Shown here: in pieces, positions 14,463 through 46,924 of the stretch
How the letters are laid out: each line of letters starts with the position of its first letter
How positions within the stretch are numbered: position 1 is the stretch's first letter
Assembly: GCF_030068605.1 (NCBI RefSeq)
Contig: NZ_JASJOU010000002.1
Location: 1 to 64,000 of the forward strand
Origin: Xanthocytophaga agilis
GTDB taxonomy: Bacteria; Bacteroidota; Bacteroidia; Cytophagales; 172606-1
Length of the DNA stretch: 64,000 nucleotides
Reading direction: 5' to 3'
The notes under the pieces: model-generated
Databases searched by the model: none
What the model was told of the DNA's origin: nothing
The model's input: only the letters and a program-made list of their open reading frames with translations
Position numbers and translations under genes: made by a program

Positions 14463-15268
14463 CATTCTGGAATTACCAATGTTGGCACATCTGTATATAA
14501 GGCAAGCTGACGAGTAACACTCCGATGAAAAAGTGAAGCAAAGAACCCACGCTTACGCGCAATTACAGCGACCAGGTCTGCATTCTGTTTATGAACAAAG
14601 GCATCAATTCCTTCCTGTACATCTTCATGTACCAGTGTATGCATAGAAAAAGGAACCGCTCCCAGCCAATCTTCCAAACGAATGGCTTCTACAGCCTTTT
14701 CTTCTGGTAGTTCCGTTGCCTCTGATTCTATATGTAAAGCAAGTATCTGCGCATTTGCCTGTTGTGCAATAGTAATCAGCGGGTTAAGTAACTGGTGTTT
14801 CGTTTCTTTAAAATCACTTGCTAGCACAATTGTATGTATAGGCTTCCAGGATACTTTTTGTGGAACAATAATCAAAGGACAAGATGTCTCCTGTGCAACA
14901 TCAGCAGTAACACTTCCAACTAAAGCCTCCGGCTTGTTACCGGCGCCTTTTGTTCCCATTACGATCCAATTTATATTTTTCTCTTTAGTGATGGTTATAA
15001 TCATATCTGAAGTTGCACCTGACTGAACCAGAAAATCACAGGGCACCTCTGTGGAGAACTCTTTACATAGTGCAGCTAACTGCTGGCGAGCCTCTTCCAG
15101 ATCGGCAATAACAGGTTCGGCAATAAATGTATCCGGGTCCAGATAAGGAATAGGTTCAATGTATACCAGTAATAACCGGGCGCCGATAAACTTCGCAAAC
15201 TGCGAGGCATATTTTAACTCTGAATGAGAGTTTTGAGAAAAATCAATTGGACAAAGAATGGTCTGCAT
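14462..15268 (-). CDS. Universal stress protein, two UspA domains
   Basis: 268 residues made of two tandem UspA folds (1-140 and 145-268). The first starts MQTILCPIDFSQNSHSELKY and has the ATP-binding pattern G-x2-G-x9-G in GTKGAGNKPEALVGS followed by 'CPLIIVP'. The second domain has only a weak form of that loop (ARKRGFFASLFHRSVTRQ) and probably does not bind nucleotide the same way. Role: general stress survival, cytoplasmic. Monocistronic with its own hairpin. Confidence 0.92.
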   Translation of the reverse strand: MQTILCPIDFSQNSHSELKYASQFAKFIGARLLLVYIEPIPYLDPDTFIAEPVIADLEEARQQLAALCKEFSTEVPCDFLVQSGATSDMIITITKEKNINWIVMGTKGAGNKPEALVGSVTADVAQETSCPLIIVPQKVSWKPIHTIVLASDFKETKHQLLNPLITIAQQANAQILALHIESEATELPEEKAVEAIRLEDWLGAVPFSMHTLVHEDVQEGIDAFVHKQNADLVAVIARKRGFFASLFHRSVTRQLALYTDVPTLVIPE

Positions 15269-15767
15269 GTGAGTCAGGTAAAGTAGTTAGATAATAGAAA
15301 CACACTACCAGGTTTTTCTATTCCTGGGCTAAGTATATATTTTCATGTTCAATAAGGCAATATAAAATAGAGCATTATCTGTGTTTATATCTGCGATATT
15401 AACAAAATGTTACTATTCAGATCTGCTATCTATTCAGAAACAAAGTAAATGTAGAAAGTAACTATGAGGTCTGGTCTGATAAAGATCAATTGAAAATATA
15501 ATTTTTGACATTCTCTTCTATTACTTTTAAAAATCAGTTTCAAGTTCATTATTTCAACCGATCTGCAAAACAGTCGAAGAAATATAAAATACCGTACCCA
15601 AAATACAATTCCTGCCTGCCATGAGTAATTCCTTACCAAATTTTGAGCAATTACTATCATTGATTTTTAGTTAAAAGACAGGGTTCAGAAAAATAACTAA
15701 CAACATAGTTTGAAAACTAAGAAATTAGTTTTAAGTTTGTCATATATAACTCCTATTATATAAAATC
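15269..15767. other. Intergenic region with BlaI-type operators at its right end
   Basis: About 500 bases between divergent genes. The left 400 bases show no credible gene or RNA; the right end holds the two dyads described separately. Confidence 0.5.
15695..15732. promoter_or_regulatory. Two tandem BlaI-type dyad operators
   Basis: AACTA-N6-TAGTT occurs at 15695-15710 and again at 15715-15730, where the wider copy AAAACTAAGAAATTAGTTTT is a perfect palindrome apart from its 4 centre bases. They lie 38-73 bp before the blaI-like gene, matching the usual autorepression position. The arm spacing equals that of the dyads at 29172-29246 while the base sequence differs. Confidence 0.6.
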
Positions 15768-16160
15768 ATGAAAAACCTGAGAGAACTTACCCGTGCAGAA
15801 GAAGAAGTTATGCAAATCCTGTGGAAACTAAATAAAGGATTTGTCAAAGACATCATAGAGCTCCTGCCAGAACCTAAGCCTGCATATAACACGGTATCAA
15901 CTATCGTTCGCATCCTGGAAACCAAAGGATTTATAGGGCATAATGCCTATGGAAAGACCCATGAATATTATCCTCTGATTTCAAAAACTGACTATACCCG
16001 TTTTTATTTTAAGAACTTTTTGAAAGGTTATTTTGGTGGATCATTTGCGGGTCTGGTTTCCTTCTTTGCAAAAGAAGAAGATGTGGATCTGAAAGAGTTG
16101 GAAGAATTGCTTAAAAACGTTCCAAAAGAAGACTCAGATGAAGATACCAGCAATGCTTAG
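15768..16160 (+). CDS. BlaI/MecI/CopY-family repressor
   Basis: 130 residues. An N-terminal winged helix (ELTRAEEEVMQILWKLNKGF, then PKPAYNTVSTIVRILETKGF) is typical of BlaI/MecI/CopY proteins, followed by a helical dimer part. Such repressors are cleaved or released when the partner M56 membrane peptidase is activated. The stop overlaps the start of that partner by 8 bases (ATGCTTAG). No beta-lactamase is nearby, so the regulon is not antibiotic resistance on the evidence here. Confidence 0.92.
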   Translation: MKNLRELTRAEEEVMQILWKLNKGFVKDIIELLPEPKPAYNTVSTIVRILETKGFIGHNAYGKTHEYYPLISKTDYTRFYFKNFLKGYFGGSFAGLVSFFAKEEDVDLKELEELLKNVPKEDSDEDTSNA

Positions 16161-17745
16161 CTACTTACTTGAAGCAAGTATAGCTATGAGTATCCTATAT
16201 ATAGTATATAAGGTATTACTCAGTCACTACAGAAACTTCCAGTTTAACCGGATATTTATTCTGGTAGCATTGAGTCTTTCAGCCCTGTTGCCTTTTATAG
16301 AGCTCCCAGCTGATACATCTCTGGTTTACATGGTTGGAATGCCAACATTTACATTGGCAGAGATTGATTTTGCAGCGTCTAAAGAAAAGCTACCTTTATT
16401 AACCAACAGGTTCACAGGATTTCAGTTACTCATGCTGATTTACTGGATAGGAGTATGTCTGGCCAGTTTACGCTTGGGTTTACAGTTAGTACGCCTCTGG
16501 CGGCAAAAACAGGCGTTTACCTACCAATCACAGGAAGGCTATCAACTTATCTTTACAAAAGGCCAGCTGCCTACCTTTTCTTTTTTCAAATGGCTCTTCT
16601 GGGATGATAGCCAAAAACTAACAGATAGAGAAACAGACTTAATCCTACTCCATGAGAAAACACATATACGCCAATGGCATTCTGCTGATATCTTACTGAC
16701 AGAGATATATAAGATCCTATTCTGGTTTCATCCTATTGTATATGCTTTCCAAAAATCACAACGTGCCATACATGAATACCTGGCAGATCAGGCAGCCTTA
16801 CAGGAAGGTTCATCAGAGATCTACATCAGGTTATTGACTCACTCTTTGTTAAAAAAACTGAATATCCCATTAGTACAGTCCTTTTATCATTCATCTTTAA
16901 AAAGTCGTATCAGTATGCTTCGTTCTGTTAAAACCAACAAGCCTACAACCTGGAAGGCTGTAGGCAGTATCCTTTCTGCTTTAGTACTTATATTAGTGTA
17001 TGCATGTAGAAGCCAGGATAGCATTAATCCATCTGCTCGTACTACTGCTGTAGATCAGATGCCTGAATATTCAGGAGGCACAGATGCTTTGTATAGAGAA
17101 ATATCACAAACTATACGCTATCCATTGTCTGCCCGTAAAGCAGGAGCGCAGGGACAGGTAGTAGCCTCTTATACTATCAATAAAGAGGGTAAACTGGAAA
17201 ATATAGAAATAACACAGGGAGTACACTCAGATGTAGATCAGGAAGTGATCAGAGTACTAAGCAATCTGAAACAAACATGGACACCCGGACAAAAAGGCAA
17301 GCAGGCAACCAATGTAAAAATGGCATTACCCATTCAGTTTGTCCTGGAGGGAAAAGATAAAAGCAATTCGGCTTCCGGTGGTAAAGGTCTGGTAGTAGTT
17401 GGCTATGCGCCTTCTGATAATATCAGTACAGATGAGCCATTTGTTGCCGTAGAGCACATGCCAGAGTTTCCGGGAGGGTTTCCAAAGCTAGGAGAATTTC
17501 TGGCTGAAAATCTGAAGTACCCGGCAGAATCACGCGAGAAAGGTGTATATGGAACAGTATTTCTGTCTTTTGTAGTAAAAGAGAACGGAGATATCTCTGA
17601 TATAAAAATTGCAAAAGGAGTTAACGCTGAAATGGATGCAGAAGCACTACGAGTAGCCAAACTAATGCCTAAGTGGATACCCGGAAAACAAAGTGGCAAA
17701 GAAGTGCCTGTCCGTTTTAGTCTACCTATCAAATTTACTTTGTAG
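16153..17745 (+). CDS. M56 (BlaR1-like) peptidase with two TonB C-terminal domains
   Basis: 530 residues from the ATG at 16153; an upstream in-frame ATG at 16138 is possible. Transmembrane helices near 5-25, 33-50 and 88-110 precede an M56 zinc-peptidase domain with HEKTH at 167-171 and EYLADQAA near 208-215, then a fourth helix at about 277-290. The periplasmic tail carries two TonB C-terminal-like domains (about 300-400 and 425-530), each opening MPE(Y/F)xGG and ending in a 'P(I)xF' strand. It is the sensor partner of the upstream BlaI-like repressor. The doubled TonB-like tail may contact an envelope partner; that is inference. Confidence 0.9.
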   Translation: MLSYLLEASIAMSILYIVYKVLLSHYRNFQFNRIFILVALSLSALLPFIELPADTSLVYMVGMPTFTLAEIDFAASKEKLPLLTNRFTGFQLLMLIYWIGVCLASLRLGLQLVRLWRQKQAFTYQSQEGYQLIFTKGQLPTFSFFKWLFWDDSQKLTDRETDLILLHEKTHIRQWHSADILLTEIYKILFWFHPIVYAFQKSQRAIHEYLADQAALQEGSSEIYIRLLTHSLLKKLNIPLVQSFYHSSLKSRISMLRSVKTNKPTTWKAVGSILSALVLILVYACRSQDSINPSARTTAVDQMPEYSGGTDALYREISQTIRYPLSARKAGAQGQVVASYTINKEGKLENIEITQGVHSDVDQEVIRVLSNLKQTWTPGQKGKQATNVKMALPIQFVLEGKDKSNSASGGKGLVVVGYAPSDNISTDEPFVAVEHMPEFPGGFPKLGEFLAENLKYPAESREKGVYGTVFLSFVVKENGDISDIKIAKGVNAEMDAEALRVAKLMPKWIPGKQSGKEVPVRFSLPIKFTL

Positions 17746-17788
17746 AAATCTAACAAAGTACTCGCTACTACAACCTATATCTATACAA

Positions 17789-17825
17789 AAAATAGCCCGA
17801 CTTCTGCAAAGTCGGGCTATTTTTT
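17789..17825. terminator. Bidirectional terminator
   Basis: A 13-bp stem AATAGCCCGACTT / AAGTCGGGCTATT with a 5-base loop and T runs on both strands, between the M56 gene and the convergent 104-aa gene. Confidence 0.92.
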
Positions 17826-18138
17826 ACTTGTCGTTTTTCTTAACAGTTTCATCCATAAATTTTTCCGTTACTTCAGGCTTATCCTCATCCTTATTATCAT
17901 TAAACCTGAGCAACCCATTGGCATTATCTGAGTCGTTATCCCTTGCTATGGTAGAGTGTCCCTCTGAATGTGTCAACTTTGGGACATCATGGAAATCACG
18001 TCCATTGGCTTCACTGGTATTCGCCTCATCTGGTTTACTAACCTGTTTGTCTGCATTGACAGACAGATCTTCGGCAGTATGTGGCTTATTTTCTATAGCT
18101 TTCTGCCTTTTTTCTTCTACTGATTTATCTGCTTTCAT
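17824..18138 (-). CDS. Hypothetical hydrophilic, disordered protein
   Basis: 104 residues, almost all polar and charged (Lys, Asp, Glu, Asn, Ser), with no hydrophobic core, signal peptide or cysteine. It starts MKADKSVEEKRQKAIENKPH and looks intrinsically disordered. I do not recognise a family. It is 39 bp downstream of a membrane protein gene in the same direction and may be cotranscribed with it. A real gene is likely from codon use and the terminator that abuts it, but function cannot be given. Confidence 0.6.
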   Translation of the reverse strand: MKADKSVEEKRQKAIENKPHTAEDLSVNADKQVSKPDEANTSEANGRDFHDVPKLTHSEGHSTIARDNDSDNANGLLRFNDNKDEDKPEVTEKFMDETVKKNDK

Positions 18139-18177
18139 AGTTCTACTTATTTATGTACAAGTAGTAGTAAGAAAAAA

Positions 18178-18594
18178 TTATGCCTTACTTTCCTGTTTCC
18201 AGGAATAATATAGGATGATGGCAAATGGTACTAGCCAAATCAGATCATTAGTTACATTGACCCAGCCAAATACCCAGGGTAGTTCACCTCTCCAGGCATA
18301 TAGAACCAAACCCACAGGTCCAAATAACTTACCCAGAAAACCTACCAGTATGATGGGCCAATGTCTTACAGGATCAAATGCAGCAATGTAATACCCCAAA
18401 CCATATACACCTACAATCATACCTACCGACTGCCATATACCAGGATAGTTTGGTTGTACCATACCTACCAGATCAAAAAAATGATGGGGGAACAATACTA
18501 TCCAGCTTCCCCAGAGTATATTATAGATTCCTGCCAGCTTTAGGGTAATTTTCATCCAGGCAGGTACCGTAGTAACACGATTTATGGGATTCAT
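18178..18594 (-). CDS. Small four-helix conserved membrane protein
   Basis: 138 residues with about four hydrophobic helices (16-34, 49-70, 77-97, 108-130). The stretch NYPGIWQSVGMIVGVYGLGY and 'HWPIILVGFLGKLFGP' is conserved in a family often mislabelled alkyl hydroperoxide reductase; no redox cysteine is present, so that name is not supported. Inner membrane, function unknown. Confidence 0.75.
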   Translation of the reverse strand: MNPINRVTTVPAWMKITLKLAGIYNILWGSWIVLFPHHFFDLVGMVQPNYPGIWQSVGMIVGVYGLGYYIAAFDPVRHWPIILVGFLGKLFGPVGLVLYAWRGELPWVFGWVNVTNDLIWLVPFAIILYYSWKQESKA

Positions 18595-18749
18595 TATCTA
18601 TCTGACGAGTTTCTCACTCAAAATAAGAGAAAACTCTATCACTTCATGAATATCTGATCTATTCATAAGTAAGTTAGATTTAATAGAGACGCACATTTTT
18701 CTCATATTTTACAGAATTAGCCTATTTCTCACACAACTCAGGATAGTAG

Positions 18750-20501
18750 TTATTTCAGATGTAGCTGTACCCCTGCTGAAACGCCAAAATAATAAGGTTG
18801 TATACGCAAATATCTCATAGGATCAGCATAGGTATTCAGCGAATATCTGAAGTTAGGCTCTATCCACCCTTCCAGTCTGTGACCGAAAAAATGCGCAATA
18901 CCATATCCAATTAATACATGAGTCTGAATACCTGATACTTTTTCATTCGTACGATAAATAGATCCTTGCAAACCTCCCAAAGCATAATGACGGAAGCCCT
19001 TGAGCATGCCAACCTGATACAATACATCCAGGCGTCCTCCAACGTTTTGCTGGATGGACTTCATTTCATAGGTATCTTTTCTATAGGTTGAAATGATAGT
19101 AACTCCCGTACTGCTATCTGTTCTCACATACGTTGACGTAGGATACAAACTCTTTGAATTATATTGTAACTGCTGTTCCTGACGATAGTAGAAAATTCCA
19201 CCGCGTAAACGCAGTCTCTGATTATAGACATATTCAATACCTGCCTGCCATTGCCAGCCCATACGTTGAGCAGCCATAGACTTGCCTAACTTGACTTGGT
19301 CTACCCATATGGAATCGGTAGTAACAGGTGAAACCATATAATAACTATTTGAATGTGTATAACTCACATATACACTCCATCTGCTTATTGGCAATTTAGA
19401 GTCTTTGGGTGTTATCTTTGGTATAGAAACATTGATTAAAGAAATTTTATTATCAGTTGCTTCTAAAGGACGATATTTCAGTTTTGACAAAACACTGATG
19501 TGTTCACTTTCAGATAATAAAAATTGTTTATCGGCACTCTCATTGTATTCATAGTTAAGTATACCTGTATTTTCATCTCTGGTATTACCATGAGATAGTA
19601 TTTTGGTCTTTATTTCACCCTTAACAGAATATTGTTTGTTTGAAGAGGTATAAAGTTTCTTTGAAACAACGAATTGTTTATCTTTTTTCCCTTTTATGAG
19701 CGGCTGTTTCTCAGCAGAGGACAATACACTATGTCCTTCATTTCTTAAAAGCTGTTTTTCCGATCTGACTATAATGCCAGACAAAGTATCCTCGGGAATA
19801 AAATCATTAGTATTCAAAGTTTTGTTGCCAGTGGTTTCCTTAGAAGAATAAATATCAGAAGTCTTTTTAGGTACGACGTTCTTGGTAGGCTTTCTGGTAT
19901 TGGAAGTCAGAGACCGATTAGAAACAGGATCAGCAGTTACAGAGTTTATAGTATCACCTTTATGTAATCTGTTTGTATAAGCAATAGTATTTTCAGTGGC
20001 AGGTTTAACTCTGTTACTCAGTTTATTATCAGTGTTCCTTAGAACCCGCTTTCTTTGGTGACGAGTAAATTTATTTTCAAAATTATCCTGAATAGGAAGA
20101 CCTATTTTTGTGTCGCTGTCTATAGTCCTATCAGCTAACATATTCTTTCCATTTGTAGAATAGCCAGAAGCTTTTTTGATATCAGACAAACCTGTGTCCT
20201 TTAGCTGGGAGGTATTTGTATATTCAGATACAACAGGATCTGTTGACTGCACAACAGGCTTCTCTTGTACTCCAGTAAATAAACGATGATCCGAAATAGT
20301 CAGACGTCCCAGACAAAACATCATTACCAGAATTGTATTTAATGTAATAAGTCTGCCATTTTGCCAAAAGAGATCCTGCCACGTCGGATGTCCCAACGTT
20401 TTCTGTATATTTTTCCATACCGCCTCATCCGGTTCGGATGTAAAGTCATCGAACCTGTTCTGGAAGAATTCTTTTTCGTTATCGTTAGGTTTGTTGCTCA
20501 T
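18750..20501 (-). CDS. Anti-sigma-like protein with long linker and C-terminal beta-barrel
   Basis: 583 residues. Residues 1-45 are cytoplasmic and acidic with the motif PDEAVWKNIQKTL; a single hydrophobic segment spans about 53-67; a Ser/Thr/Lys-rich, low-complexity region of some 300 residues follows; and the last ~190 residues alternate like outer-membrane strands (for example RLRGGIFYYRQEQQLQYNSK and the final SAGVQLHLK). It overlaps the upstream ECF sigma gene by 17 bases. The reading is an anti-sigma factor tethered through the periplasm to an outer-membrane domain. The same layout recurs at 45128-46924. Confidence 0.7.
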   Translation of the reverse strand: MSNKPNDNEKEFFQNRFDDFTSEPDEAVWKNIQKTLGHPTWQDLFWQNGRLITLNTILVMMFCLGRLTISDHRLFTGVQEKPVVQSTDPVVSEYTNTSQLKDTGLSDIKKASGYSTNGKNMLADRTIDSDTKIGLPIQDNFENKFTRHQRKRVLRNTDNKLSNRVKPATENTIAYTNRLHKGDTINSVTADPVSNRSLTSNTRKPTKNVVPKKTSDIYSSKETTGNKTLNTNDFIPEDTLSGIIVRSEKQLLRNEGHSVLSSAEKQPLIKGKKDKQFVVSKKLYTSSNKQYSVKGEIKTKILSHGNTRDENTGILNYEYNESADKQFLLSESEHISVLSKLKYRPLEATDNKISLINVSIPKITPKDSKLPISRWSVYVSYTHSNSYYMVSPVTTDSIWVDQVKLGKSMAAQRMGWQWQAGIEYVYNQRLRLRGGIFYYRQEQQLQYNSKSLYPTSTYVRTDSSTGVTIISTYRKDTYEMKSIQQNVGGRLDVLYQVGMLKGFRHYALGGLQGSIYRTNEKVSGIQTHVLIGYGIAHFFGHRLEGWIEPNFRYSLNTYADPMRYLRIQPYYFGVSAGVQLHLK

Positions 20502-21036
20502 AGTTCACGATTCCTAACTCTTTTAGTTTTTTCTTTAATACATCTCTCGCTTTAAACAATTGAGAGCGTGAGGTATTCTCAGATATGCCCAACATCTGTC
20601 CAATTTCAGCATGGTCATATCCATCGATTACATATAGGTTAAATACCATTCGATACCCATCAGGTAACGCGTTGATCACTTTTACAATCTCTTCATTGGA
20701 CAACTGTGCCATTAACTTCCAGTAATCATCATTGCTATGGGATATATCCTGGTAGTCGACAGTTTGCGGATAATGCAATTGTGACCGGTAATAATTCAAT
20801 GCCGTATTTGTGACAATTCGTTTCATCCATCCTACTATAGCATCGGGATTACGTATTTCTGCAATGTTTCTGAAGATCTTTATAAACGACTCTTGTAGAA
20901 TATCTTCCGCTTCCTCTGTATTCTTGGCATACCGACGGCAAATACCCATCAAACGGCTTTTATACTTTTGGTAAAAAGCCGTTTGAGATTTAGGATCATT
21001 TTGCTGGCAACCTAAAATCAGTTCTTTATCAGACAT
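20485..21036 (-). CDS. ECF RNA polymerase sigma factor
   Basis: 183 residues: region 2 (GICRRYAKNTEEAEDILQES, FIKIFRNI) and region 4 (INALPDGYRMVFNLYVIDGY, HAEIGQMLGISENTSRSQLF) of an ECF sigma-70 factor. The stop lies 17 bases inside the anti-sigma/barrel gene, implying translational coupling. It would direct RNA polymerase to a small envelope-response regulon. A long hairpin lies 33 bp before its start. Confidence 0.93.
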   Translation of the reverse strand: MSDKELILGCQQNDPKSQTAFYQKYKSRLMGICRRYAKNTEEAEDILQESFIKIFRNIAEIRNPDAIVGWMKRIVTNTALNYYRSQLHYPQTVDYQDISHSNDDYWKLMAQLSNEEIVKVINALPDGYRMVFNLYVIDGYDHAEIGQMLGISENTSRSQLFKARDVLKKKLKELGIVNYEQQT

Positions 21037-21068
21037 CTATATTCTAACGATCAAATCATTTCGGATAA

Positions 21069-21117
21069 CCTCATTATTCCAGAGTCATAAGATGTTTATG
21101 ACTCTGGAATAATGAGG
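21069..21117. repeat. 22-bp perfect inverted repeat hairpin
   Basis: CCTCATTATTCCAGAGTCATAA and its exact complement flank a 5-base loop GATGT. It lies after the repeat lipoprotein gene and before the sigma gene, and lacks a T run, so it may be a processing or attenuator hairpin rather than a simple terminator. Confidence 0.75.
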
Positions 21118-21129
21118 TATAGTAAGGGT

Positions 21130-22380
21130 CTATTTAATATCAAAATAGACAGTTGCTTTTTGTGTGCAGGAACTTGGGGTAACACATACACTATACTGGA
21201 GCGAATCTTTTCCTACAAAACCTGGATTTGCTTTAAATACAACTCTATTATCTCGTATTGAAGCGGTTCCATTTGAAGGCTGCTCAGCAATACGTATTCC
21301 ATGATAAACACATCTCAAATCGTCATTCTTCAGCACAGGAAAACTTGCTCCTTTTGTGTACAAGGAGTCAGATAGGAAAGCAGGTTTATAAGCAATTGTA
21401 TCACTATTCAGAATATTGGTACAGGCACCTGCATTAATCTGAAGAGAAACTCTCGCTGTATCACATACAGAGCCCTGGCAAATACGATAGTGGATATAAT
21501 CCATACCTACATAATCACTATTAATTGTATATAAACCATAGAATATCTTGTTACCAGATACTTCTGCACTACCATATTGAGGTGCTGAAATAATAGTTAA
21601 CACTGGCGCAACTTGTCCTGAACACAATGCATCATTTGCCAATACATCCAGAAATAGGCTATACGCTGTCTGAATAGCAAATGAATCACTCACAGCCTCC
21701 AGACAATTGGATATATTTTGACCAACTTGAATAGTTACAACAGCCATGGCGCAGGAACCTGTACTACTACAAACCTGATATATAAAGTAATCAGACCCTT
21801 CATAGTTACTATAAGGAGTGTATACAATCCTCTTATTTTGAATGCTGACCGTACCATGTTCAACAGCTCTGATTATATTCAGCGTTGCACTGTCTAGTGT
21901 TCCTTCACAAAAACTATCATTGCCAAGCACATTCATCGTGATCGGAGTGTTGAGGCTGGTAGTGAAGTTATCTGAGATAACGCCATTACTACAGGGAATA
22001 GAGTCAGTAGGCGTAAACTTGATAATAACTGTATCTACTATAGAAATAGGGCTAAGAGAATCACCAGAACTAACAGTAAGCAGAAAATAGTCTGAGCTTA
22101 CATTTTTGGTTGTGTCCGGAAAATATAACAAGGTAGCATCCTGTATAAAGCTAGCTTTTCCGTTTATCGGTTGTTGTGTAATACGAAAACCTGTTGCCCC
22201 CTTATACTCTTCCATTTCCAGAAGGTTTAGAGCTAATCCCGTCTTTGGTGTTGTGTAGAGTGTCGTTCCATTTTGTGGCGAGGGGGGAGTAAGGCTGCCA
22301 TCTTTGTTAATAATATCGCACGCATAAATAAACAAGGCAATAAACGCAACCAGCCACCAATAACTTTTTATATTTTTCAT
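21130..22380 (-). CDS. Lipoprotein with tandem Ig/cadherin-like repeats
   Basis: 416 residues from the ATG at 22380; an upstream ATG in frame gives six more residues that would spoil the signal peptide. The signal peptide ends in a lipobox (FIYAC, Cys21). Four or more repeats of about 85 residues follow, each with a 'VLxND' or 'ANDxLC' turn, a 'GTAS/GSAEV' strand and a 'YxGxDxxxYxVC' strand, like tandem cadherin-like/Ig-like domains. Cysteine pairs recur in each repeat. Likely lipid-anchored at the cell surface, perhaps for adhesion. Confidence 0.8.
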   Translation of the reverse strand: MKNIKSYWWLVAFIALFIYACDIINKDGSLTPPSPQNGTTLYTTPKTGLALNLLEMEEYKGATGFRITQQPINGKASFIQDATLLYFPDTTKNVSSDYFLLTVSSGDSLSPISIVDTVIIKFTPTDSIPCSNGVISDNFTTSLNTPITMNVLGNDSFCEGTLDSATLNIIRAVEHGTVSIQNKRIVYTPYSNYEGSDYFIYQVCSSTGSCAMAVVTIQVGQNISNCLEAVSDSFAIQTAYSLFLDVLANDALCSGQVAPVLTIISAPQYGSAEVSGNKIFYGLYTINSDYVGMDYIHYRICQGSVCDTARVSLQINAGACTNILNSDTIAYKPAFLSDSLYTKGASFPVLKNDDLRCVYHGIRIAEQPSNGTASIRDNRVVFKANPGFVGKDSLQYSVCVTPSSCTQKATVYFDIK

Positions 22381-22567
22381 ATAGATAATGTGTGTCAAAA
22401 ATAAGATATAAGATCACAGATAAACAGTTCTCGAGATTGCTATCTGCTATAAAGACCCCTACCCTTTTTGAAACGTTGTCTATACATTGAAAAAAATAAA
22501 AAATGCTGTCAGGTCATACAATATTTTTATTAATGTAAATCAGAGATAAGACAATATACTTACATTT

Positions 22568-23047
22568 TTACACTATACTTATTTTTGCCAACCTAACCAA
22601 CAAGCCTATCTGTCCCAAGTGATATACATCATGCTCAATAATTCCTTCCAGTAAAAACTTAAGTGTATATTGTTTAGGTCCCAGGCGCTTTGCCAGTAAG
22701 GTATCTGGCTGATTCTGTAATAAAGTAGTAATATCATCCTGAGACTGTGCTAAATTTGCTTTAAGACTTTCCCATCCTATGCCTTTTACATCTCTAAAAG
22801 GAGGCCATTCTTCTTCACTATCGAATTTAACATTGTATTCATCATTCCCTTTCAACCATTGAATCAATGCATTTCGCCAAATGGTCATATGGGCGACAAT
22901 TTCAGCAATGCAATGTACTTCAGGTCCCACTTTGTAATAGGCGTCCTTTGTTGTGATCACATTTACCTTCTGAAGGACAGAATCTCCATACCAGGGTTCT
23001 CCATTATAAATATTTTCCAGTTGCTGAACCAGGCTTTGCAGTTGCAT
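22568..23047 (-). CDS. DinB-family (DfrB/YfiT-like) protein
   Basis: 159 residues forming the four-helix DinB bundle. The metal-binding histidines are suggested by 'EIVAHMTIWRNAL' and the final IIEHDVYHLGQI. DinB-like proteins include thiol-dependent transferases and metal-dependent hydrolases. No further neighbours give a substrate. Cytoplasmic. Confidence 0.85.
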   Translation of the reverse strand: MQLQSLVQQLENIYNGEPWYGDSVLQKVNVITTKDAYYKVGPEVHCIAEIVAHMTIWRNALIQWLKGNDEYNVKFDSEEEWPPFRDVKGIGWESLKANLAQSQDDITTLLQNQPDTLLAKRLGPKQYTLKFLLEGIIEHDVYHLGQIGLLVRLAKISIV

Positions 23048-23578
23048 AAGTGTAAGATATTTTATATAATCTTGCTATACGACTCAAGTTCTGGATAAGT
23101 TTTCTATTATCAAAGGTTATTTATGAAATTGCATCATACCTCCAAAAACAAATAAAATCAAGCTAGATAGCCATATTACTATATGAACATTATTCAGCAA
23201 TTCCCTTCATTTATCTATCTGAATTTTGATGAATAATAGACGTAACCAGACTCCCCTAGCTATAGATGCTATATATTTCACTCAAATAAATATTTCTCAC
23301 TAACACTTTTTAATAAATAAGCCTATAATCAAACTATCACTATTTTCATGTAATATATCTGCTAAATCCGAAACAGATTAAAACTATACCTTTGTATAAT
23401 TTTGCGGATTTTTACTCTGTATTTATTTTATATTATTATTAAATATCTTATCCCTGAAATATTTATGGAATAAACGATTGTTTACATCTATTACTGGAAA
23501 GTTTCTTTTACTACAAAATTACATACATTACTTCTATAAAACCTCTAACTATTTATCTCAATTAATCTATAGTCAACT
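23048..23578. other. AT-rich intergenic region
   Basis: About 530 very AT-rich bases. A Bacteroidota-like -7 element TACCTTTG lies at 23387-23394, 185 bp before the LamG gene. No gene or stable RNA is recognised. Confidence 0.45.
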
Positions 23579-26141
23579 ATGCCCATCTCTACAAGTTATT
23601 TCCCTTTACAATTCAAGAAATCATACTGGCTGGTATTGGTATTATACCTACTATATTTTCCAGGTTGGTCTCAGAATTTACAACAAGGCTTGGTTGCCTG
23701 CTACCCATTTGAAGGCAATGCAAATGACTTTAGTGGCAATAGCAATAATGGCTATGTGAATGGAGCAACTCTCACTACAGGACGTCATGGCGAACCTAAT
23801 AGTGCCTACTTATTTAATGGGAAAGGTAACTACATTGAATTATACTCTGCCAGATTGAAAAACCCTAGTTATAGTTATTCATTATGGGTAAAACCTGTCA
23901 AACTACCCAGCACTGGAGAAGCTAGCATTATCTTCTCCATGGGAAGTACAGGAGGCGATCAAAATTTATCTATCAATAATAGTTACGCCAATATGCCTTC
24001 TGGGTATGGAGGTGGAGGATATAGCATTCCTGGTTCGGACCCCATTTAATGTATTTGTTCTGACAGGTACACTTCCAACAGTAGGAGAATGGATACATCT
24101 TGTAGTTACCAGAGATCAGAATGTTCTTAAATTCTATCATCAGGGTATACTAGTAGGATCAGATGAAACAAAAGGAGGCGCTACCTATTATGGTAGTGGT
24201 ACAGTCAGAGCCATACTAGGTGGACGTTCTACATTGACTCAATTCTTCAATGGAGTGGTAGATGATCTCACTATTTATAACCGGGCACTCACAGAAGAAG
24301 AAGTAAAACAGTTGTACATCTCCGGTTTGCCTTGCTCTTATTATACAGATAAGCTCCAAACAACTATCAAAGGCCGCATTTATTCAGATGAAAATCAAAA
24401 TTGTGCTTTTGACAACACTGATAAGCCTTTGAAGCAGGTTCTGGTAGTTACACAACCTGGTAATTACTATGGCATTACAGATTCCACAGGCTATTATCAA
24501 ATCTCTGCAGATACAGGTACTTATACAGTTAGTCAGCTCATTAATGCAACTGACAATCAATTTGTACAGCCACTTTGTCCAGCCAATAATGTATCTGCAT
24601 CTGTTACACTTAAAAATAGAGGTGATAGTGTGACAAATGTCAACTTTGCCAATAAAGTCACATTACTTCCTCATCTGGAAAGTGCTGTAAACTCAGATCG
24701 CCGTCGCAGATGTTTTACCAATGAAACGTTCGTAACCTACACAAATAATGGTTATGCAGCAGCTCAAGGTGTGAAGGTATATGTCAAAATGCCAAAGTAT
24801 GTAATCTTTAAATCAGCGGATAAACCATATACCATTGATAAAGACTCAAACTATGTTTTTGATATTGGCATACTCAATGCCAGTGAAACAGGGGCTATCC
24901 ATATTATTGATTCAGTATCCTGTGTTGCAAACATTACAGGATTGACAGCTTGTACTAAAGCGTGGATCACTCCTGCTAATGGATATACTCTTCCAGAAAA
25001 CTCACCATGGGATAGCTCAGATATCTCACTTACTGCTAAATGCATAGAAAATGGTCGTGTTCAGATGATTATTAAAAATGTGGGGCAAGCAGCTATGGCT
25101 GATAGCACAGAATTCAGAGTGTACCTAAATGCTCAATTAGCTTTCCGCAAAAATTACCTGTTAGCAAAAGGCGACAGCCTGATACTAAAAATCCCTGCTA
25201 ATGGTAAAACTATTCGTCTGGAAGCAGATCAAAGAACTGGCCATCCGCGTAAATCACAAACCAATCTTACTATTGAAGGGTGTGTATCATCAGTAAGTGA
25301 TGTGGTCAGTAAAGGCTTTGTAGATGTATTACCTCAGGATGATGCAGAACCAGAAGTATCCATCAACTGCCTGATGATACGTGATTCATACGATCCAAAT
25401 GATAAACAGGTTAGCCCTGCAGGTACAACCAATGATCATTATACATCACCAGGCTCTGAATTAAAGTATACTATCCGATTCCAGAATACAGGAACGGACT
25501 ATGCTTATACTGTGGTATTGATTGATACACTCTCGGAAAATCTGGATCTTTCCTCATTACATATGAGTGCGGCTTCTCATAAATATACCTTGAAAGTGAG
25601 CGGCAAAGAGAAACCTGTTTTGATCTGGACATTTAATAACATTAATCTTCCAGACAGCACCCTAGACCAGGCAGGAAGCAATGGATTTGTTCAGTTTTCG
25701 ATTAAACCTAAGGCAAATCTGCCAGAAAAGACATTGATTGAGAACTTTGCAGATATCTTCTTTGATTACAATGAGCCTGTTCGTACTAACACCACCGTAA
25801 ATGTTATATACGATGTACCAAAGGTGATTAATCCTGCAATTCAACTGAATGAGAGCATTATTGATAGGGTGATGGCAAGTGAACCAGAAGTACTGAGAGG
25901 CAAGATTTCATTGTATCCAAACCCTACCCAGAATCAGTTATGGATACAGGCTACTGATGCAACTGTGCGTATTGAACAGGTTACCGTTTATAATATGTTG
26001 GGAGAGAAACAAGTTATTTCCTATACGCAATCAACCACGCAGACTCTGGAAGTAAAGTTGGGTGAAAAATCAAGAGGCATGTATCTGCTTAGCATTCAAA
26101 CCAACAAAGGCACATCTATCCAAAGGATAATAGTACAATAA
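23579..26141 (+). pseudogene. LamG / DUF7619 surface protein with T9SS tail, frameshifted
   Basis: Two overlapping frames make one protein of about 850 residues. The first (23579-24049) has a signal peptide ending 'FPGWSQ' and the first half of a LamG lectin domain (GLVACYPFEGNANDFSGNSN). The second (from about 24020) resumes the same LamG domain (PFNVFVLTGTLPTVGEWIHL) and ends in frame at 26141. After LamG come a prealbumin/SdrD-like domain, repeat segments including SYDPNDKQVSPAG of the DUF7619 type, and a C-terminal type IX secretion sorting tail (LYPNPTQNQLWIQ). The shift lies between 24020 and 24045, near a C run. It is either a true lesion or a sequencing error. Confidence 0.85.
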
Positions 26142-44589: not shown

Positions 44590-45150
44590 ATGTTATTCAG
44601 TGAAGACGAACTTATAGAAGGCTGTATAAGAGGAGATAGAACCCAACAGCGACGCCTCTACGAACTTTTCTCCAAAAGAATGTTTGTAGTGTGCTTGCGC
44701 TATGCAAAAAGCCGACTGGAAGCAGAAGATGTATTACAGGAATCGTTTATTAAAGTTTTTGAGAAAATAAAAGATTTTCGGAGAGATTGTCCTCTTGAGG
44801 GATGGATCAAACGTATTGTTATCAATACAGCATTGAATCAGAATCGTAGTAAATTATACATGTTTCCAGCAGTAGATATAGATGATATACATGAAGCAGA
44901 AGATAGTCATTCATCCCTTTCAGATCTGAGTTTCCAGGAATTACTGGAGATGGTGCAACAGCTGGCACCACGTTATCAGGTCATTTTTAACCTGTATGCC
45001 ATTGAAGGTTATCAACATAATGAAATTGGCACTATGCTGGGTATTAGCGAAGGCACTTCCAAGTCGCAATATGCACGTGCTAGAGCTATACTCCGCCAAA
45101 TGATAGAAGATAAACAACAAATAAAATATGAACGCTTCCGAAAAGAATAG
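44590..45150 (+). CDS. ECF RNA polymerase sigma factor
   Basis: 186 residues with ECF region 2 (VCLRYAKSRLEAEDVLQESF) and region 4 (LAPRYQVIFNLYAIEGYQHN, EIGTMLGISEGTSKSQYARA). It is a paralogue of the factor at 20485-21036: both share 'EDxLQESFIK(V/I)F', and both overlap a large anti-sigma/barrel-like gene (here by 23 bases). It would respond to an envelope signal passed by that partner. Confidence 0.93.
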   Translation: MLFSEDELIEGCIRGDRTQQRRLYELFSKRMFVVCLRYAKSRLEAEDVLQESFIKVFEKIKDFRRDCPLEGWIKRIVINTALNQNRSKLYMFPAVDIDDIHEAEDSHSSLSDLSFQELLEMVQQLAPRYQVIFNLYAIEGYQHNEIGTMLGISEGTSKSQYARARAILRQMIEDKQQIKYERFRKE

Positions 45151-46924
45151 CTTTGAAGAGCAGTGGAGAGACGCGTTTGAAAACGCTGAGTTACCCCCAG
45201 ATCCAATGATCTGGTCAAATATTGAAACAAAACTGGCAGATGCAGAAAGAGATAAATATAAAAGAAAGCTATATTTATTTAAGCTGCGAGTCGCTGCTGC
45301 CGTAGCATTACTGGTATTGGCAACTGGTATATGGACCATCCAGCAGTCCATGAAAGGGAATAGTATTGCCATTGTAAATCATTATGAGAAAGAAATCCAT
45401 AGTTCTGGCCCTGACAAAGGAGTATCCATATCTTCTGGAGACAAAACTTTCAATACAGATTCTACGCGATCTGCTATTTCTAATGTGTCTGCCTCTAATA
45501 CAGCCAGTAATACTTTATCTCAGCATTCGTCAACCCCTGTCCTTCAACCAGCTACAAAAACAGAATCATCTTCCAATACAGTCAGAAACAACTCAGAAAG
45601 TGGAAAGACCAGTTCAACTCAGTTTGTAGAAAAACAGGATCAACTTTCCTATGAATCAACAAAATCAGGTACTAAGACATCAGCTATTAAGACAGATGCA
45701 CAAACAACATCTATAGGCAAAGCACCACAAAATCAGGAAACATCTATTGTTACAAATGGTAAATTATTATCGGATAAACAAAAGAAAAGTTTACAGACAA
45801 CGAATGTGGAAGATAATGTTGCTTATTACGAAGCTTCACCAACAAAGAAAAACACACTCAAAAATACCGGAAAAAATGTTGAGAGTTCATCAATAGTAGA
45901 TCAAAACCTTAACCCAGCTAGTGAAAATTATATATCAGCAATTCATTCCCAATCAAATAATTATCAAGCAAATAATTATATAGTAGCTGTTGAACCTATC
46001 TCAGGAAAGTCTGTTCATACGCAAATGGCAAAAGCTGTAGTGAAAGATATTCGCTGGAAACTTAATCAGGATTTCTGGGATCAGTTGACAGCACAGGATC
46101 TGGCAGCACAGCAAAAGAAACAAATGCACAGAGCACGTTGGAGATTAGATGGTGGTGCAACTCCAGGAAGCTTTAATCCAAATTTTAACTCAACCAGTTA
46201 TTCTGCAATGAATAGTTATGCTGATCAAGCACTTACTCCGACAACAGTAGGAAAAACCAATGCTGTTAGCCCATCAAGTAAGGACATAGGTAGCATGACA
46301 CATTCGGGTACTTTTTATGCAACAGGTTTACAAACAGAGTTTGCACTATCAGAAAGGTTTTCCATCCTAGGAGGAGTTCAGTATACTTATAGTAAGTCTC
46401 AGATAGATGTGACTCAGTATACCGCATTTAGTAATAGTTCTGCTATTCAGCCCGACTTTTATGAATTATTTGGGGCTTCATCAAGAAGTACACCTACTAA
46501 TACACTGGCCCAAAATAATATATCTTATAGGACGTCTCTAAACACCAATGAAGTACAAAGTCTGGATAATACCTATCATTATATTGGATTTCCAATGCGA
46601 GTTCTTTACAAAGTACTCAATCGAAAAGTAAAAGCCAGTATAGGTGCAGGAGTGTCTACAGACCTATTTCTGAAGAGCCAGATTAGTAGTTCTGAAAACA
46701 ATATAGAAACACTCGAATTCAATCGTTCACAGAATTCATTCTATAAGAGTACAATTTTTAGTGGATTGTTAAGTGTAAAGCTGGATTATGCCATTGACAA
46801 TAAATACAGTATTTATCTTGAACCCAGCTTCCGCAGAACATTATCATCTTCAACTACCTCATCTACTTTGAGTAGTTTTCCTGGATGGTGGGGAGTAGGA
46901 ACAGGTATAATGTATAGATTTTAA
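45128..46924 (+). CDS. Anti-sigma-like protein with long linker and C-terminal beta-barrel
   Basis: 598 residues. Residues 1-55 are cytoplasmic with PPDPMIWSNIETKLADAERD, equivalent to the PDEAVWKNIQKTL motif of the protein at 18750. A single hydrophobic segment lies at about 57-73. About 250 Ser/Thr/Asn-rich residues follow, then a ~270-residue domain of beta strands (EFALSERFSILGGVQYTYSK, 'YHYIGFPMRVLYKVLNRKVK') ending 'GTGIMYRF', as outer-membrane barrels do. Proposed as the partner of the overlapping ECF sigma factor, spanning both membranes. That topology is inferred. Confidence 0.72.
   Translation: MNASEKNSFEEQWRDAFENAELPPDPMIWSNIETKLADAERDKYKRKLYLFKLRVAAAVALLVLATGIWTIQQSMKGNSIAIVNHYEKEIHSSGPDKGVSISSGDKTFNTDSTRSAISNVSASNTASNTLSQHSSTPVLQPATKTESSSNTVRNNSESGKTSSTQFVEKQDQLSYESTKSGTKTSAIKTDAQTTSIGKAPQNQETSIVTNGKLLSDKQKKSLQTTNVEDNVAYYEASPTKKNTLKNTGKNVESSSIVDQNLNPASENYISAIHSQSNNYQANNYIVAVEPISGKSVHTQMAKAVVKDIRWKLNQDFWDQLTAQDLAAQQKKQMHRARWRLDGGATPGSFNPNFNSTSYSAMNSYADQALTPTTVGKTNAVSPSSKDIGSMTHSGTFYATGLQTEFALSERFSILGGVQYTYSKSQIDVTQYTAFSNSSAIQPDFYELFGASSRSTPTNTLAQNNISYRTSLNTNEVQSLDNTYHYIGFPMRVLYKVLNRKVKASIGAGVSTDLFLKSQISSSENNIETLEFNRSQNSFYKSTIFSGLLSVKLDYAIDNKYSIYLEPSFRRTLSSSTTSSTLSSFPGWWGVGTGIMYRF

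Follow-up and report, generated by a model that had tools for sequence, protein, structure and literature searches.

Can a single protein hold an ECF sigma factor at the inner membrane and also report on the outer membrane? Two overlapping genes at positions 18750-21036 of the window, by which we mean the whole 64,000-nucleotide stretch of Xanthocytophaga agilis DNA that was analysed (host genome 9.77 Mb, 66 contigs), raise this question. In the FecI/FecR/FecA system, an event at the outer membrane reaches the ECF sigma factor through a separate FecR and a TonB-dependent receptor. A first-pass annotation of the window had proposed that here a one-chain anti-sigma factor ends in the outer membrane and senses the surface state directly.

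Gene pair and partner architecture

The following features, all on the reverse strand, make up the locus.

20485..21036, reverse strand: ECF sigma factor gene (ORF, 183 aa, regions 2 and 4)
18750..20501, reverse strand: predicted Dma-like anti-sigma partner gene (ORF, 583 aa)
20485..20501, reverse strand: overlap of the sigma and partner genes (17 bases)
20358..20501, reverse strand: partner residues 1-48, predicted cytoplasmic sigma-binding region with PDEAVWKNIQKTL and conserved W29
20295..20351, reverse strand: partner residues 51-69, inner-membrane helix (mean hydropathy 1.86)
19386..20294, reverse strand: partner residues 70-372, polar low-complexity periplasmic linker (by composition)
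18753..19385, reverse strand: partner residues 373-583, predicted outer-membrane beta-barrel domain (AF2 model, fold matches and Pfam matches in the family)

The window sigma factor matched Pfam families Sigma70_r2 (E 6.4e-15) and Sigma70_r4_2 (E 1.2e-14), both above the Pfam cut-off. As the first-pass annotation had noted, its gene shares 17 bases with that of the partner, and an overlap of at least one base recurs in 48 of 54 homologous sigma/partner pairs from other genomes; we infer that the overlap couples the translation of the two genes. A perfect 23-base inverted repeat with a 5-base spacing (21068-21118) lies between the sigma gene and its upstream neighbour (21130-22398, reverse strand), which encodes bacterial Ig-like (Big_9) and cadherin-like repeats; the inverted repeat may be a terminator or a regulatory site.

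The tryptophan motif PDEAVWKNIQKTL covers residues 24-36 of the partner, and W29 is kept in at least 90% of 59 relatives (alignment rows). The tryptophan is also invariant in three Bacteroidales members, for which the profile comparisons given below aligned the barrel only, without the N-terminal region. Residues 51-69 are the sole stretch of the partner with a mean hydropathy of at least 1.6 over 19 residues, and the helix starts between residues 30 and 115 in 54 of 54 paired homologues. Within the linker, residues 71-372 (302 residues) are 71% S/T/N/K/Q/D/E/P/G/R/H, and aromatic residues make up 5% of this segment versus 16% of residues 373-583; composition was the sole criterion for calling a tether in the window partner. 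Linker length varies from roughly 138 to 458 residues across the 54 homologues. The W-containing motif, the one helix and the linker of about 300 residues that had been read from the window at first sight were all recovered.

Searched at full length, the partner matched no Pfam family at E <= 1 and no solved structure by sequence similarity at E <= 1, and its NCBIfam matches to a PorV family (E 0.0032) and a sugar isomerase (E 0.0018) both fell far below the cut-offs. There was no Pfam match to an ASDI or zinc-binding domain (class I anti-sigma, ASDI/ZAS), in a region of about 48 residues that may escape such models. The comparison with FecI/FecR/FecA is one of outcome, in that an outer-membrane event would reach an ECF sigma factor in both cases, and the partner differs in having no FecR match. 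Given no FecR and no Pfam family at E <= 1, we rejected FecR/FecA-type signalling for the window partner, and the original distinction from the FecR/FecA pair held.

Predicted C-terminal barrel domain

An AF2 model of the C-terminus, built on a three-sequence alignment, had eight long strands and two short ones at low confidence (mean pLDDT 50.1, with five models running from 50.1 down to 24.2; pTM 0.45). The top 19 structural matches of this model were membrane barrels, natural or designed, with Z-scores of up to 8.8 (NspA 8.8, OprF 8.4, OmpA 8.2), and a soluble enzyme stood in the same list at rank 46 (Z 5.2). Foldseek TM-scores were low, at about 0.1-0.24. Structure prediction had been put forward as a check on the C-terminus: the fold matches speak for a membrane barrel, and the model itself is of low confidence.

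The stronger evidence for a barrel comes from sequence comparison rather than from the structure model. The C-terminal part of the window partner alone gave two Pfam matches, both weak (Toluene_X the better, E 0.069), and its X. flavus orthologue (L080, 87% identical) matched OMP_b-brl at E 4.4e-4, below the cut-off. Across the family, 44 of 59 members matched OMP_b-brl_2 at E <= 0.01, both proteins from the window being without a Pfam match, and one paralogue elsewhere in the host genome (L017) exceeded the OMP_b-brl_2 cut-off (28.9 vs 27 bits). Taken with the eight-strand model, these matches bear out a barrel-like C-terminus.

Survey of the barrel across the class

A whole-protein search of 59 related genomes matched in three, the window's own among them, and a scan of genome contigs for close relatives found one locus only, in X. 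flavus. Because whole-protein relatives were so few, we sought distant ones with a barrel profile. Profile A5, made from five barrels, was searched against 198 genomes of the class and matched in 62, the host genome included. Joining rows of one ORF left 84 places outside the host genome; 83 had an ORF, and L195, which had none, was dropped.

An ECF sigma gene lay directly upstream of 54 of 58 barrel ORFs of at least 390 aa versus 1 of 25 shorter ORFs, where both the 390-aa cut and the adjacency window (gap <= 60, overlap <= 200) were set after the list was seen. The 54 sigma/barrel pairs are spread over 42 genomes outside the host's. The sole short ORF with an upstream sigma gene, L174, is probably a broken fused gene. 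Four long ORFs had no counted sigma: L122 (none found), L164, L171 (a fusion, described below) and L183, which contains an undetermined residue and has a 75-aa sigma fragment 122 bases away. The L164 product (483 aa) carries a barrel, begins with a stretch resembling a signal peptide and, judged by eye, has an STN-like region; a sigma gene is found about 1 kb upstream. The short ORFs, mostly about 220-310 aa, have a signal-peptide-like start in 20 of 25 cases. A tryptophan pattern, W..[IVLMF], occurred within the first 90 residues of 49 of the 54 sigma-paired long forms versus 4 of the 25 short ones. As predicted from these sequences, the barrel is found in two settings, either as a stand-alone, putatively exported protein or at the far end of a sigma-linked chain.

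Kinship with Dma and related systems

Pardue 2024 is said to be the founding paper of the Dma family. The one-chain, two-membrane anti-sigma architecture is already known from two published systems: the accessible text of Pardue 2026 (PMC13088901) describes Dma (dual membrane-spanning anti-sigma) in Bacteroides as an N-terminal anti-sigma region, a helix, a disordered tether and a C-terminal barrel, with an adjoining ECF21 sigma factor, and that of Evans 2022 (PMC9308784) describes an unusual sigma/anti-sigma pair in Phocaeicola (M0N98_03760/03761) whose partner is predicted to span the periplasm and to carry an outer-membrane barrel at its C-terminus. The window pair shares with the Phocaeicola pair this periplasm-spanning layout; the Phocaeicola pair differs in that the toxin BcpT induces it and that it is linked to O-antigen length, according to the same part of PMC9308784.

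To place the window pair relative to Dma, we used a B. finegoldii dma2-type operon standing in for the B. theta sequences. By the locus tags and annotations in the accessible text of PMC13088901, the B. theta order is das2 - dma2 - BT_1557 - BT_1556 - BT_1555, and the B. finegoldii order (L230) of sigma - OMP - DUF4943 - DUF4858 - nitronate monooxygenase is the same as in that published das2-dma2 region. Compared by hhalign, a window-seeded family profile (A7) matched the B. finegoldii OMP at 99.0% (E 7.7e-18), over the barrel only. Profiles made from Cytophagales alone matched the three Bacteroidales members, also over the barrel only (A3, 96.9%, E 1.4e-10; A5, 97.4%, E 1.2e-11). The L230 record (NZ_OY725915.1) is labelled a plasmid and carries nadC along with the dma2-type operon; the label may be wrong and the record part of the chromosome. 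At another B. finegoldii locus (L228 586-3291), a sigma/barrel pair has a divergently oriented NigD-like gene as its neighbour; in B. theta, NigD1 is induced on loss of dma1, as stated in part of PMC13088901.

The sigma factors are related as well. The window sigma is 35% identical to that of the B. finegoldii dma2-type operon (E 3e-38), and in a 152-row sigma tree both fall in one 94-row group (SH-aLRT 99). This group holds all 57 barrel-paired sigmas (three from the host genome), 4 from Bacteroidales, 27 rows of the fused set described below and only 6 of the 64 other host-genome sigmas in the tree. The tree excludes the long-branched L029, L050, L023 and L059 and own-genome sigmas outside 150-235 aa, and its 27 fusion rows count L221, which has a frame ending short of the barrel, and do not count L207; an earlier sigma tree took every second other sigma.

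The window pair has in common with Dma2/Das2 of B. theta, as described in the accessible part of its source, an ECF sigma factor beside a partner with an N-terminal anti-sigma region, here a predicted one, a helix, a tether and a barrel, and its barrel and sigma factor are homologous to those of the corresponding B. finegoldii operon. It differs in its Cytophagales host, in partner length (583 aa vs 349 aa in B. finegoldii) and in its other neighbour genes. Judged from sequence, the pair appears to be a new relative of the Dma family in Cytophagales. The one-chain, two-membrane anti-sigma first proposed for this locus is supported in its layout and by homology to a dma2/das2-type locus, and the architecture itself had been described before.

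Relatives in X. flavus and in the host genome

The X. flavus locus keeps the gene arrangement, with a partner 87% identical to that of the window. Relative to it, dN/dS was 0.13 in the barrel, 0.80 in linker residues 71-240 and 0.48 in the N-terminal 48 residues, the last value coming from few sites and from a comparison disturbed by patchy identity. Two linker bins, 19800 and 19900 (62% and 73% identical), are the least alike of the 11-kb comparison, its frayed end excepted. Over 14500-25400, patches of about 98-100% identity to L080 lie beside patches of about 81-90%, which suggests recombination between two close species. Since this patchiness runs across 11 kb, we read the low dS of linker residues 241-372 (0.012) as recombination as well, and rejected a nucleotide-level element there.

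The host genome contains two further pairs of this type, one of them in the window.

44590..45150, forward strand: second ECF sigma gene, same clade as the first (186 aa; Pfam, tree)
45128..46924, forward strand: second Dma-like partner gene (598 aa), overlapping its own sigma gene by 23 bases
L017 1074-3178, reverse strand: third sigma/Dma-like pair of the host genome, barrel above the OMP_b-brl_2 cut-off

The second partner has a hydrophobic stretch at residues 50-68 and a C-terminal part 22% identical to that of the first; it had no Pfam match at E <= 1, and its AF2 model reached a pLDDT of 28. A close relative of the L017 pair was seen in genome G006 (L082). Four other host-genome sigmas of the same clade (L020, L027, L030 and L035) have partners with a tryptophan-bearing start and one helix and with different far ends: no barrel was seen in L020 and L027, L030 is weakly barrel-like (OMP_b-brl_2 E 0.14), and L035 is von Willebrand-A-like by eye, with no Pfam match over the cut-off. 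It looks as if different sensors can be plugged onto one kind of anti-sigma region.

Fused sigma-barrel relatives

One of the long barrel ORFs, L171 (489-2132, reverse strand), is a single frame of 547 aa in which sigma regions 2 and 4 are followed by a helix, a linker and a barrel, with Sigma70_r2, Sigma70_r4_2, OMP_b-brl_2 and OMP_b-brl all over their cut-offs. We searched 151 genomes of family f53 (the family of genome G224) for such fusions and then read the frames.

L171; L197-L220, L222, L224, L225; L233, L236-L241, L245, L246: fused single frames (ECF sigma, helix, linker, barrel)

Among the matches listed, 28 of 30 loci had a sigma ORF of more than 330 aa with a hydrophobic stretch right where the sigma match ends; 27 of those 28 ORFs were at least 490 aa long, and the last residue was tryptophan in 24 of the 27. 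Eighteen further stretches comprised 12 single-frame sigma-barrel proteins, 4 two-gene pairs, 1 broken gene (G321) and 1 at a contig edge. A clear helix followed the sigma part in 11 of the 12 single-frame stretches and was absent in L244 (G379), and two of these 12 repeat counted loci. Left outside the fused count were G302, G320, G354 and G396, ordinary two-gene pairs by frame reading, and L226/L248 (G395), which runs off the contig edge. In total, at least 33 of the 151 genomes of the family carry a fused frame. Besides L171, six of these fused proteins passed both sigma-region cut-offs in 6 of 6 cases and a barrel cut-off in 5 of 6. Broken-looking genes of the fused type, with sigma and barrel in nearby separate frames, were seen at L221 + L247 (G321) and at L174 + L223 (G089).

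In the sigma tree the fused set is a single clade (SH-aLRT 100) placed next to Bacteroidales pairs (90), and a search of 295 class genomes at E <= 1e-45 matched in only three, all of family f53 (two full-length, one on the sigma side only). The helix of the fused proteins starts at the end of sigma region 4, so there is no room for an N-terminal anti-sigma region. A literature search, largely limited to open-access journal papers, found no description of a sigma-barrel fusion. The nearest precedent is IutY together with the actinobacterial ECF48/52/53 groups, in which, according to the accessible text of PMC8999054, a sigma factor is likewise fused to a membrane-bound regulatory extension, from which proteolysis releases it (IutY) or is expected to release it. 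The fused relatives differ by adding an outer-membrane barrel to the same chain, and none is mentioned in that part of PMC8999054, whose text contains neither 'barrel' nor 'bacteroid'.

We lean towards the view that, in this one family, sigma factor, helix, linker and barrel form one protein that is inactive while anchored in both membranes and active after cutting, so that the barrel would be the direct switch of a transcription factor. A sigma factor joined to a membrane helix is free only when cut.

Proposed mechanism and alternatives

For the window pair, we consider it likely that this is a Dma-type sigma/anti-sigma pair, with the sigma factor held at the inner membrane, a barrel sensor in the outer membrane and release by proteolysis. 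The gene layout, the helix, the linker composition and the homology of barrel and sigma factor to a dma2/das2-type locus are observed. In the proposed sequence of events, the N-terminal ~48 residues of the partner would bind the ECF sigma factor and hold it at the inner membrane, the one helix would cross that membrane, and the ~300-residue flexible tether would cross the periplasm to a C-terminal 8-stranded barrel which, inserted in the outer membrane, would act as the sensor. Once the barrel encounters its signal, fails to insert or comes under strain from envelope damage, cleavage would occur in the periplasmic tether, and a site-2 (M50) protease would then cleave the remaining stub within the membrane. 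The freed sigma factor would transcribe its regulon, its own operon probably among the targets.

That the N-terminal region holds the sigma factor and the barrel senses is, by analogy with the published pairs, most likely. Release by proteolysis is favoured because of the fused relatives, in which the sigma factor is covalently joined to a membrane helix. We also counted in its favour two M50 proteases in the host genome and the precedent of IutY in Pseudomonas putida, a membrane-fused sigma factor freed by proteolysis (accessible text of PMC8999054); the presence of M50 proteases says little, since they are universal (14 of 14 control genomes). The same protein might instead signal mechanically, with a pull or conformational change along an intact tether loosening the sigma factor without a cut. 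We think this unlikely, even though a single chain runs from helix to barrel in the 54 paired homologues and no computed result separates the two modes in two-gene pairs: the linker, which in the window protein is polar with few aromatics and which ranges over the 54 homologues from roughly 138 to 458 residues, is poorly suited to passing force, and in the fused relatives, where the sigma factor is part of the chain, release needs a cut.

Two other readings would change what the partner is. The C-terminus could be a soluble, beta-rich periplasmic fold, making the partner an ordinary one-membrane anti-sigma factor with a long sensor, and the low-confidence model (pLDDT 50.1, pTM 0.45), the failed one of the paralogue (pLDDT 28) and the lack of a Pfam match in the window protein would fit this. 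It is nevertheless improbable in our estimate, given that membrane barrels fill the first 19 places among the fold matches, that 44 of 59 relatives match OMP_b-brl_2 and L017 passes its cut-off, and that the profile relatives include the short proteins, with their signal-peptide-like starts in 20 of 25. The partner might also be no anti-sigma factor, only an outer-membrane protein sharing the operon, with its N-terminal helix an uncleaved anchor. The case for this is that sigma binding by the partner is indirectly deduced, and we give it hardly any credence: the tryptophan pattern marks sigma-paired long forms (49 of 54) and not short ones (4 of 25), loss of the Phocaeicola partner switches on genes that the toxin also induces (accessible text of PMC9308784), and the B. 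theta dma2 phenotype needs das2 (likewise from part of PMC13088901).

Implications

The interest of the window pair lies in how widespread its plan is and in the fused relatives that were reached through it. With those relatives the mode of signal transfer can be tested cleanly, in that a sigma factor built into its own tether needs a cut for its release; if they work as we suggest, sigma factors of the Dma lineage, including that of the window pair, would in general be released by cutting and not by loosening. The Dma plan extends from Bacteroides to Cytophagales and appears to be widely used, with 54 pairs spread over 42 other genomes in the 198-genome sample of the class, and a one-chain link from the outer membrane to RNA polymerase would not be a gut-specific oddity.
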